Shown here: positions 3,198 to 6,481 of the stretch, one piece after another
Layout: each line of letters begins with the position of its first letter
Position numbering within the stretch: the first letter of the stretch is position 1
Source: Isoptericola halotolerans
GTDB lineage: Bacteria; Actinomycetota; Actinomycetes; Actinomycetales; Cellulomonadaceae
Direction: 5' to 3'
Assembly (NCBI RefSeq): GCF_003003075.1
Contig: NZ_PVTX01000003.1
Location: forward strand, 186,001 to 250,000
Length of the DNA stretch: 64,000 bases
Notes under the pieces: model-generated
What the model was told of the DNA's origin: nothing
The model's input: the letters and a program-made list of their open reading frames with translations, nothing else
Databases searched by the model: none
Position numbers and translations under genes: made by a program

Positions 3198-3274
3198 CGG
3201 GGTGTGGCGCAGCTTGGTAGCGCGCTTCGTTCGGGACGAAGAGGTCGCAGGTTCAAATCCTGTCACCCCGACCA
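3198..3274 (+). tRNA. tRNA-Pro (anticodon CGG), CCA encoded
   Basis: The acceptor arms CGGGGTG (3198-3204) and CACCCCG (3264-3270) pair perfectly. The anticodon stem CTTCG/CGAAG encloses the loop TTCGGGA, giving anticodon CGG. The T-arm carries GGTTCAAATCC, and A-CCA is encoded. The gene is intact, but its 3' half is duplicated 3.2 kb downstream, showing that it served as an integration site. The 5' part is chromosomal; under the usual tRNA-integration model the 3' part was supplied by the inserted element. Confidence 0.95.
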
Positions 3275-3279
3275 GCCGA
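3230..3279 (+). repeat. Left attachment site (50-bp direct repeat)
   Basis: Fifty bases starting in the tRNA anticodon loop and running 5 bases past the CCA are identical to 6432-6481. The match stops at a base change on each side. Identity that begins inside a tRNA and ends just after it is the hallmark of tyrosine-recombinase integration at a tRNA gene. Confidence 0.88.
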
Positions 3280-3280
3280 A

Positions 3281-3323
3281 AAGGGCCGCTGACCTGGGCA
3301 TTTGCTCAGGACAGCGGTCCTTT
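3281..3323 (+). terminator. Terminator after tRNA-Pro
   Basis: A bipartite stem, AAGGGCCGCTG against CAGCGGTCCTT with an inner CCTG/CAGG, is followed by a short T-rich run. It lies just inside the island, so the element appears to bring its own terminator for the tRNA transcript. Confidence 0.75.
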
Positions 3324-3620
3324 CGCATTGTCCGGGGAGGCCTCTTCGTCCCTGCTGCTGGCTCCATCGCTGGCGTATCGACGTCATGCGACCTCTTCGT
3401 GCACCACGCCTTCGAACACGTTCGCGCTGGTCACAAGCCCCGACTCGACGGTTTGCGACCTCTTCGACATCCGCAGTTCCGGCTCCCCCTCGGTCTCGCC
3501 ACAGCGCTGGATGCGGGCGACAGAGTGCTGCCGCCTCAGTTGACACGGCCCGACTGCCATCCTTCTCACGCCGCCGCGCCCCTCCAGCACAACTTGCCTG
3601 ACCAACACGGCGAGCCAGAC
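3324..3620. other. No gene recognised
   Basis: About 300 bases between the tRNA terminator and the methyltransferase element. Open frames exist on both strands but none has a ribosome binding site, typical codon use or a recognisable motif. A decayed gene, possibly the 5' part of the one interrupted at 3632, could lie here. Confidence 0.4.
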
Positions 3621-4596: not shown

Positions 4597-4746
4597 CGCC
4601 CGCACTGTCCATACACTCGGAGCCATGCCCGACGGCGCCCGCGCTCTGACGGGGCTTGACCCCGGAGTTGCGGAGCGACAACAAGTGACACGCAGGAGTC
4701 CGAGATCACCAAGACAGTGCTGATGGAGCTCGGGGCGGACCAATGA
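4597..4746 (+). pseudogene. 3' remnant of a gene interrupted by the cassette (tentative)
   Basis: If the cassette and one 12-base duplication are removed, a frame entering at about 3544 continues through the junction into residues reading ARTVHTLGAMPDGARALTGL. It goes on to about 4690, where a shift of one frame gives a tail ending MELGADQ and a TGA that overlaps the kinase ATG at 4743 (ATGA). The overlap suggests a translationally coupled upstream partner of the kinase that is now broken. No domain is recognisable in what remains. A HipB-like antitoxin would be expected in this position by analogy, but no helix-turn-helix is visible. Confidence 0.3.
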
Positions 4747-5681
4747 CCAAGGCCTCGATTGCCGACGCCCACGGGGACGAGATCGACGTCACCGACTGGG
4801 CGGTCATTCGTGACGAGCCAGGTGGCCGTGACCCCAACAAGCGCTGGCTTGCGCCAGACCCTGACGCCCCACGCCAGGAGCACTGGTTGTGGAAGTCCAG
4901 ACAGATTACGGCGAGCGGCGACGTGCACGCGCTGACTGATTGCGCGGAGGTCGTTGCCTCCCGCCTGGCGGGCCTCCTGGGCATCCCCGCGGCTGATTGC
5001 CGCTATGCCGTCCACGACGGCGAGCTGGGCTTGGTCTCGCGCAATGTCGCTCCGGAGGGTTTCAGCCTCAACACCGGCGCGGCGTATCTCCCGGAGGTCG
5101 TAGGGTACGTCCGACAGTCGGAGGGCTCGGCCGCGCGGGCCCCTGTTGGGCGTATGCATCGCGATGAGGGCTACACGCTCGACGCGGTCGAGCGGGTTCT
5201 CTCCGGCGTCAATCCTCCGCCAGGGTTGGCTGGGTTCACTGCGTTCGGCGCGTTCGCTGGATACCTCGTTCTCGACGCCCTCGTCGGCAACAGTGACCGC
5301 CACCCGGGGAACTGGGCTCTCCTGGAGTCGGAGACCGGCGAACGTTTCCTCGCTCCCACCTACGATCACGGCACCGCCCTCGGAGCCGGCTTGACCGACG
5401 AGAACCGTAGGGTCAAGGACCCAGCCGCGTTCGCCCGGCGCGGAAGAGCAAATCCCTTCACTCCACGCAAGCAGAGTCTGGTAGATCTTTCCCTCACCGC
5501 GGTACGGCGAGCGGACGCAGCCGAGTGGCTGCGTCGACTCGCTCGGCTCGACGACTCCGGAGTGAGGGCCATACTGGACGCACCGGGTCAGCGACTGTCA
5601 GTGGTCGCGTCTACATTTATGGAACGCGTCGTACTCGAGAACCGGAGGAGGCTGTGCGATGACAACGCTGCTCAAGACTGA
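4743..5681 (+). CDS. HipA/CtkA-like protein kinase
   Basis: 312-residue serine/threonine-type kinase of the HipA C-terminal/phosphoinositide-kinase-like fold. Visible elements are a candidate ATP-binding lysine in WLWK (K51), a helix-C acidic residue (E69), the catalytic loop GNSDRHPGN (182-190; D185, N190) and a metal-binding DHG (208-210) in place of DFG. HipA toxins phosphorylate glutamyl- or tryptophanyl-tRNA synthetase and cause growth arrest; CtkA-type relatives lack the HipA N-terminal subdomain, as this protein does. The stop overlaps the next gene by 23 bases and the start overlaps the stop of a broken upstream frame. A toxin or phage-defence effector role is inferred from fold and island context only. 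Confidence 0.75.
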   Translation: MTKASIADAHGDEIDVTDWAVIRDEPGGRDPNKRWLAPDPDAPRQEHWLWKSRQITASGDVHALTDCAEVVASRLAGLLGIPAADCRYAVHDGELGLVSRNVAPEGFSLNTGAAYLPEVVGYVRQSEGSAARAPVGRMHRDEGYTLDAVERVLSGVNPPPGLAGFTAFGAFAGYLVLDALVGNSDRHPGNWALLESETGERFLAPTYDHGTALGAGLTDENRRVKDPAAFARRGRANPFTPRKQSLVDLSLTAVRRADAAEWLRRLARLDDSGVRAILDAPGQRLSVVASTFMERVVLENRRRLCDDNAAQD

Positions 5682-6318
5682 CCAGCTCCTCGTCAGCCGG
5701 CAGGACCCGGCGACCCGACGCTTCGCGCGCGTGGGGACCTTGACCTTCAACGGCGTCGAGTACTCCTTCGAGTACGACTCGACCGCAGATCGCTCGCTCC
5801 CAGGCCTGCCCCGAGGCAAGCGGCATAGAAGCGAGGCACTGTTCCCGATCTTCGCCGAGCGCATCATTGACCCGCACCGACCGGAGCGCGAGCAGACGCT
5901 GAGCTATCTCGGGCTTCCCCGCGATGCGAGCCCGTTCGAGGTCCTCGCGGTCTCGGGCGGGGGCCGTACCGGCGACACCTACGAGCTGACACCGTTGCCC
6001 CAGCCGGGCGATGTCAGCCTTCCGTTCCTGGTGCACGGAGTCCGGCACCTCACGGCAGCTGAGCGTCGCGAGATCGACCAACTCCGCCCCGGAGACCATC
6101 TGGCTCTGCGACTGGAGTCGAACAACCCTGTCACGAATCGCGCACTGCTCGTGACGAGAGATGGCGGACGGCTCGGCTACGTGCCGACGCCCCTGCTCGA
6201 CTACGTCCACCAGATCATGAAGCAGCCATACGAACTCGCCGTCGAGCGCGTCAACCCGGCCGATGCCGGACTCCACATGCGACTTCTCGTTCGGCTCAAC
6301 GGCCACTACATCGCCTGA
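5659..6318 (+). CDS. HIRAN-domain protein, partner of the kinase
   Basis: 219-residue protein. Residues about 122-190 match the HIRAN pattern: RLESNNPVTNRALLV, then a glycine pair and GYVP (173-176). HIRAN domains bind DNA ends or stalled-fork features and are fused to SNF2 helicases and nucleases. The N-terminal half (VGTLTFNGVEYSFEYD, then LFPIFAERI) faintly resembles the first N-terminal subdomain of HipA, which is the free-standing antitoxin HipS in HipBST systems. The ATG lies inside the kinase 3' end (23-base overlap) behind GGAGGAGG at about 5644, so the two are co-translated. Role as antitoxin or DNA sensor is inference. Confidence 0.65.
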   Translation: MTTLLKTDQLLVSRQDPATRRFARVGTLTFNGVEYSFEYDSTADRSLPGLPRGKRHRSEALFPIFAERIIDPHRPEREQTLSYLGLPRDASPFEVLAVSGGGRTGDTYELTPLPQPGDVSLPFLVHGVRHLTAAERREIDQLRPGDHLALRLESNNPVTNRALLVTRDGGRLGYVPTPLLDYVHQIMKQPYELAVERVNPADAGLHMRLLVRLNGHYIA

Positions 6319-6431
6319 GCGTCCTGGCCTCCCTGCTGGCGCAACTGCTGGCTTACCGGCGCGACCGTGGGCGGACACCAACGGACGCCGAAACCGGCGG
6401 TTCCGGCGGCATCAGGGCACGTCAACGTTCA

Positions 6432-6481
6432 TTCGGGACGAAGAGGTCGCAGGTTCAAATCCTGTCACCCCGACCAGCCGA
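6432..6481 (+). repeat. Right attachment site (50-bp direct repeat)
   Basis: Identical to 3230-3279. It is the displaced original 3' half of tRNA-Pro, lacking the 5' half and therefore not a functional tRNA. Confidence 0.88.

Follow-up and report, generated by a model that had tools for sequence, protein, structure and literature searches.

In the genome of Isoptericola halotolerans (assembly GCF_003003075.1), a small island located at a tRNA-Pro(CGG) gene was found to carry a hipI-hipN gene pair and is, in our judgement, rather likely to be an integrase-less cassette bounded by attachment sites, similar to cis-mobilizable elements (CIMEs), that would be mobilised by a foreign integrase. This reading is based on the occurrence of a core repeat at both ends, of arm-like repeats phased to that core on both sides, and on the fact that no integrase was detected. 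Its mobility in trans and its role in defence are both properties that we infer. Coordinates refer to the 64,000-nt stretch of contig NZ_PVTX01000003.1 that was analysed (hereafter designated as the window; Table 1), and comparisons were made with 18 genomes of its genus and 221 genomes of its family.

An insertion at the tRNA-Pro gene

The direct repeat flanking the island is 54 nt long, with a single mismatch between 3226-3279 and 6428-6481, and encloses 3.2 kb. Positions 3230-3279 and 6432-6481 are identical over 50 nt, which confirms the 50-bp exact repeat of the tRNA-Pro 3' half reported in a first-pass annotation of the window. The 45-nt core common to relatives extends, by reading, from the anticodon loop to the CCA of the tRNA. 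Cores that start at the anticodon loop are a known type of tyrosine-integrase site. A repeat of this kind cannot plausibly be due to chance, and it is also found in relatives at the same tRNA. The remaining core-like matches in the window's own genome are four in number, 31-35 nt long, and all inside tRNA-like matches of 75-77 nt. With a threshold of at most 3 mismatches, the core was detected in 111 of the 221 family genomes, two or more copies being present in 15 of those 111. Within the genus, at least two copies were found in 7 of the 18 genomes, to which G008 and G007 can be added with a degraded second copy (9/18 in total); in G013 and G014, the second copy is on a contig other than that of the tRNA.

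Comparison with relatives having a single tRNA-Pro copy, a check suggested in the first-pass annotation, supports insertion. Among the nine other genus genomes, G015 could not be judged, as its contig stops at the tRNA. In G004, G006, and G017, which have one tRNA copy, this copy is directly followed by the hairpin type that is seen to the right of the second copy in the window, whereas the window's own tRNA is adjoined by a different hairpin. This exchange is the pattern expected after insertion. A sigma-factor gene (6566-7468) is located to the right of the island and is also found directly after the second copy in G008, with a different cargo in between; in G011, it lies beyond the Hen1-Pnkp genes, and no core copy was found in between.

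Table 1. Features of the tRNA-Pro island and its borders (window coordinates).
Feature	Position	Strand	Evidence or remark
tRNA-Pro (CGG), intact; left junction of the island	3198..3274	+	ARAGORN
Left repeat copy (attL), 45-nt core at 3230-3274	3226..3279	+	repeat comparison
"Type-B" hairpin directly after the left core	3275..3327	+	similar sequence in 7 of 221 family genomes, including the window's own
Left arm: three GACCTCTTCG-type repeats at +65, +116, and +183 after the core	3339..3466	+	
8-nt target duplication GCATTGCC, left	3623..3630		
Transposase-less ISL3-type insertion; 24-nt terminal inverted repeats 3631-3654 and 4563-4586	3631..4586		
S-adenosylmethionine-dependent methyltransferase, passenger	3735..4499	-	Pfam Methyltransf_25 2.6e-10
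8-nt target duplication GCATTGCC, right	4587..4594		
HipI-type (CtkA/HipT-like) kinase, 312 amino acids (aa), putative toxin	4743..5681	+	predicted structure; PADLOC PDC-M03 match
HipN-type protein, 219 aa, putative antitoxin/sensor	5659..6318	+	PADLOC PDC-M03B 4.6e-67; Pfam HIRAN 1e-5; model pLDDT (predicted local distance difference test) 91.1
Right arm: CAACTG at -90, GCGGA at -61, CGGAC at -60 and -50 from the core	6342..6427	+	
Right repeat copy (attR)	6428..6481	+	repeat comparison
Terminator-like hairpin, of the type directly 3' of the tRNA in single-copy G004, G006, and G017	6482..6521	+	

Phased ends and diverse cargoes

The repeats of the left arm are related to the core itself, GACCTCTTCG being the reverse complement of CGAAGAGGTC in the core. 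Similar repeats occur at +66, +116, and +181 in G011 (c2) and G001, at +65, +114, and +170 in G012, and at +65 and +116 in G035. Three such repeats were present in 14 of 5000 random 230-mers and two in a further 18, the random pools used for both arms containing the site loci themselves. Near the left-arm ends of G012, G001, and G035, no integrase of the site's family was found in the stretches looked at. On the opposite side, motif counts over 22 right ends (160 nt left of the core) placed a CAACTG-type sequence at -98/-99 in 7, GCGGA at -69 in 8, and CG(A/G)AC at -58 in 12, all three irrespective of cargo. At least two further right-arm types exist, one represented by G012, G007, and one G035 end, and the other by G008, G010, and G014. 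In local alignments, the window right arm scored 76 with the first right end of G011, 54 and 52 with two ends from G035, and 46 with a further end of G011, compared with a mean of 16.3 and a maximum of 50 in 3000 random draws. The right arm of the integrase-less G008 cassette scored 58 with G010 and 59 with G014 (null maximum 31); the G010 segment holds a full integrase, and the G014 integrase is found at its tRNA on a different contig.

The genes enclosed by these ends are diverse. G011 exhibits a row of four core copies on one contig (L060 8091-16677), with three successive cargoes: on the tRNA side, a Schlafen/AlbA_2 protein; then an AbiEi-like helix-turn-helix (HTH) protein, a protein with no Pfam match, and a PDC-S01 ATPase (1.4e-136); and finally an AbiEi protein (1.9e-47), with Hen1 and Pnkp RNA-repair genes past the last copy. 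The G008 cargo is a 794-aa GHKL protein matching a PADLOC type II restriction model (REase_II-like, 6.4e-137), and the G050 cassette (L090 1523-5122) comprises three genes with no Pfam or PADLOC match at 1e-3. In a census of 19 core-bounded segments, tabulated by hand and in which integrases outside the searched family could be missed, 4 had a full integrase (9.7-38 kb) and 10 had none (1.3-17.2 kb), the others containing only C-terminal integrase pieces (G005, G007, G063, and G293) or a distant integrase (one segment). Small cassettes in the window's genus range from 1.3 to 6.5 kb.

Between the window repeats, no integrase was detected by tblastn with a relative's integrase or with a hidden Markov model (HMM) of eight integrase sequences of the site's family, unrelated families not having been profiled in every open reading frame (ORF). 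The island thus lacks an integrase of its own at this level of detection, as first annotated, and its description as a "mobilised satellite" holds only insofar as other elements located at this tRNA have phased repeats in common with its ends.

Several observations weigh against a cassette that is mobilised in trans. The GACCTCTTCG-type repeats are absent from the other 24 of 29 stretches tested, including all eight integrase-adjacent left ends, and G011 (c3) has a type-B hairpin without left-arm repeats. Relative to other elements at this site, the motifs of the window right arm (-90, -61, and -50) are shifted by 8 nt towards the core, which would fit a short deletion. This arm scores 16-25 against the integrase-linked G010, G014, G020, G047, and G066, and its best match (G011 16633) can be connected with an integrase only by bridging a gap between contigs. 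The G011 integrase is found beside the tRNA (L059 3618-4844) with a small HTH protein, a DUF3631 protein being located across the gap; the window's best match might be the right end of this integrase element if the gap is small, a link that falls short of proof. Since the window's own genome has no close integrase (best identity 32%), the cassette may now be stranded. Among the genomes that bear elements, G010 and G011 are examples in which similar hairpins also occur 3' of the left copy, and the sigma-factor homologue of G003, G004, and G013 is on the same contig but distant from the tRNA, so that the right flank is not general in the genus. Cargoes elsewhere also include non-defence genes, by reading glyoxalase-like genes in G014 and a two-component pair in G035.

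As the integrase-adjacent left ends are devoid of the window repeats and the right-arm scores with integrase-linked elements are low, these comparisons do not show a partner integrase. Judging from sequence, the island belongs to a lineage with ends that are found next to varying genes, and for its type of left arm no partner integrase was found. We tentatively propose a broader scenario, less likely than the cassette reading itself, in which a family of integrase-less cassettes, recognisable by three inverted core repeats at fixed spacing on the left and by a phased arm on the right, would be moved in trans by tyrosine integrases of tRNA-Pro elements, piling into arrays of interchangeable, often defensive modules. 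Such arrays would amount to an integron-like supply of immunity genes at a tRNA gene. Separately, a type-B-like hairpin was observed in G025 (L167 3905-5300) after a different tRNA-like core, adjoining an ORF that is a relative of the tRNA-Pro integrases (1e-71).

The hipIN pair

Based on sequence and predicted structures, the two cargo genes fit the hipIN type, with a HipI kinase and HipN as putative antitoxin, and are a probable abortive-infection toxin-antitoxin pair. Their coordinates and their overlap, of 23 nt, are as first annotated. The kinase retains K51, E69, D185 (N183-x-D185-R-H), N190, and D208-H-G, which we take to be the catalytic residues, and the lysine, catalytic loop, and DHG motif noted earlier are thus all present. 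Its model aligns from residue 12 with CtkA and from residue 10 with HipT. HipN is composed of a HipS-like domain (residues 7-113) and a HIRAN domain (residues 115-219), encoded by the gene downstream of the kinase, as in hipIN. Structure prediction supported both the CtkA/HipT-type kinase fold and the HipS-like plus HIRAN architecture put forward in the first-pass annotation, although the N-terminal half, then considered faintly HipS-like, is clearly so in the predicted structure. Both proteins match PADLOC PDC-M03 over almost their full length (3.8e-90 for HipI and 4.6e-67 for HipN). No HTH protein (hipB) was found among the four island ORFs run on Pfam, shorter ORFs upstream of hipI being outside the scan.

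The ability of this HipN to sense DNA ends is doubtful. R129 is kept, but H130-L131 and V158-T159 are found where HLTF has Tyr-Tyr and Tyr-Asp, residues that presumably contact DNA in the 3'-end pocket. Across 26 aligned HIRAN rows, the Asp column has D in 17, N in 8, and T in 1, the window's own. The link between HIRAN and DNA ends drawn in the first-pass annotation is also not new. Gerdes, Baerentsen, and Brodersen described the pair in 2021 as hipIN and the fused form as HipL, and proposed that HIRAN recognises phage DNA ends, leading to kinase activation and abortive infection (PMC8262856). In the same article, HipN is also called a putative antitoxin, and actinobacterial HipN is set apart from those HIRAN domains in which most DNA-contact motifs are conserved, which, together with the pocket residues, weakens the link. 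In a 2025 article, HipA/HIRAN genes adjoin about one-third of diDNase genes, the latter being often located near mobile elements (PMC11706625).

A methyltransferase inside an ISL3-type insertion

All three genes of the first-pass annotation are indeed located between the repeats, but the third encodes a methyltransferase carried by a separate transposon-like insertion. With terminal repeats, an 8-nt target duplication, and no transposase found, this insertion has the features of a non-autonomous ISL3-type transposon. ISL3 elements generate 8-nt target duplications. Chance was rejected as an explanation for the inverted repeat (3630-3654/4563-4587), which matches the ends of ISL3-type elements. 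Such ends enclose stretches of about 1.43 kb in G011, G001, G013, and G016, and the G011 stretch contains an ISL3 transposase (Pfam DDE_Tnp_ISL3 1.7e-54) as well as an 8-nt duplication. No such duplication was found in G001 and G016, and G013 could not be judged, as its left flank reads N; its occurrence in G011 only, among these four stretches, is a point against the ISL3-end interpretation. Mobile insertion cassettes and insertion sequences (IS) with passenger genes similarly combine IS ends and a target duplication with another gene in place of a transposase; here, in contrast, the insertion is nested inside a tRNA cassette. The methyltransferase is best regarded as a passenger, extraneous to the module, that arrived later in an older hipIN-only cassette. 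Given its position within an ISL3-type insertion with a target duplication, this older cassette probably carried hipIN alone, in about 2.2 kb.

Alternative explanations

The island could be a decayed remnant, left when a deletion removed the integrase of an ordinary tRNA-Pro element, which would now be fixed, with arms that are unused relics. The C-terminal integrase pieces found in four of the census segments, the lack of a close integrase in the window's own genome, and the 8-nt shift of the right arm are consistent with decay. Yet no remnant of the site's integrase family was found in the window island, and the left-arm repeats recur in G011, G001, G012, and G035 beside different genes, a distribution that a single decay would not yield, the stretches looked at in G001, G012, and G035 being also devoid of an integrase of that family. 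We regard decay as possible but less likely than the cassette reading.

The role of the cargo is open to other interpretations. Slightly less probable than decay is a plain addiction module that stabilises the island and has no anti-phage role, as might be suggested by the classification of hipIN with toxin-antitoxin genes in PMC8262856 and by a HipAB pair that reportedly stabilises a composite island of Shewanella (PMC8978831). Against this, the pair is included in PADLOC as a candidate defence system, AbiEi, PDC-S01, and a REase_II-like protein occur at the same hotspot, and 10 chosen hipIN neighbours in 6 of 8 loci include restriction enzymes, namely the neighbours in L084 and L085. It is far less probable that the three genes form a defence operon in which the methyltransferase marks self DNA or modifies the kinase. 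All three are between the repeats, and the methyltransferase matches MADS mad2 (5.4e-15) over part of its length, but it is on the other strand, within ISL3-type ends and an exact 8-nt target duplication, and its GC content (72.4%) is close to that of the window (73.1%) and differs from that of hipIN (66.3%). A homologue with 91% identity was found in G058, a genome with no kinase match, with no ISL3-type ends seen within the 3.8 kb fetched there. Conversely, the hipIN-bearing G066 has no methyltransferase match, the best match in G030 is 479 kb from hipIN, and no locus was seen linking this methyltransferase and hipIN without transposon ends. Based on its transposon ends, strand, GC content, and unlinked homologues, the methyltransferase was rejected as an operon member.

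Proposed mechanism and relation to known systems

According to the favoured explanation, a cassette mobilised in trans, a tyrosine integrase from another element of the hotspot, brought by a plasmid, a conjugative element, or a phage, would excise and insert the cassette, and the methyltransferase would have arrived later with the transposase-less ISL3-type insertion. Upon phage attack, HipN would be displaced or altered, via a HIRAN ligand or by HipN loss, and HipI might phosphorylate a target in the host, which by analogy could be a tRNA synthetase, so that growth would stop before phage release.

The window pair shares with hipIN, as presented in PMC8262856, a two-gene operon, a core-only kinase of about 300 aa (the 312 aa of the window kinase fall inside the 279-321 aa range of short core-only Hip kinases), a downstream HipS-like plus HIRAN protein, and a proposed role as phage-sensing abortive kinase. 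Nothing essential was seen to differ, except that the window copy is found in an integrase-less tRNA-Pro cassette. PDC-M03 is a computational candidate whose name was not found in the open-licence PubMed Central (PMC) text searched. Predicted kinase and HipS folds also match those of HipBST (HipS-HipT) and CtkA.

As in CIMEs, attL and attR are kept, and no integration or transfer genes were found, Pfam having been run on four ORFs of the island. CIMEs and the Dehalococcoides ssrA islands, of which 15 without an integration module were reported, have these properties together with tandem arrays at one RNA gene (PMC3146451, PMC5704250). The window cassette differs in having a tyrosine- rather than a serine-integrase site and phased arm repeats across unrelated cargo, and the cassettes of its genus in their size and several defence-like cargoes. 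Clusters of attC sites lacking integron-integrases (CALIN) and miniature inverted-repeat transposable elements (MITEs), designated as "hitchers" in PMC11389934, are also non-autonomous DNA moved by the recombinase of another element; the window cassette relies instead on tRNA core sites, not on attC or IS ends, and carries whole gene modules. Among the open-licence PMC titles and abstract starts listed for PDC-M03, integrase-less tRNA defence hotspots, and actinobacterial tRNA-Pro islands, none described such arrays. The kinase-HIRAN link is already published, and the new part is the setting: sequence comparison points to a single tRNA gene occupied by small cassettes that have phased ends in common but vary in cargo, part of which is defensive. 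In related genomes, the same repeats at this gene enclose different small modules (hipIN, AbiEi, PDC-S01, Schlafen-type, and REase_II-like). If one integrase moves them all via shared arms, tRNA cassette arrays would give actinobacteria a simple means of exchanging immunity genes, and a search for arm motifs would reveal more such cassettes. The window cassette is a convenient natural unit for testing the hipIN pair.

hipIN in other contexts

The first-pass annotation held that the same genes in relatives at a non-tRNA position with no repeat would speak against its interpretation, and the outcome is mixed. In Nocardioides stalactiti (L081 8249-12348), hipIN is found in a 4.0-kb stretch between 54-nt tRNA-Ala repeats, whereas 11 of the 13 relatives' hipIN loci scanned have no tRNA within the fetched stretch, and in four of these 11 no long repeat flanking hipIN was found. 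The hipIN pair is thus not tied to this type of tRNA island. In N. agariphilus (L084), hipIN was also observed just after a tRNA-Ala, and a 107-aa ORF of L081 (11821-12144), without Pfam match, looks by eye like an integrase piece.

A search of viral contigs with the HipN profile gave no relative that passed confirmation, whereas an HMM search of kinase-recruited loci did find HipN relatives. Phage and plasmid records contained distant kinases only (5 in phages at 26-27% identity and 7 in plasmids at 30-33%). Natural kinase-HIRAN fusions resembling HipL were observed on viral contigs (L099, L111, L113, L114, and L115).

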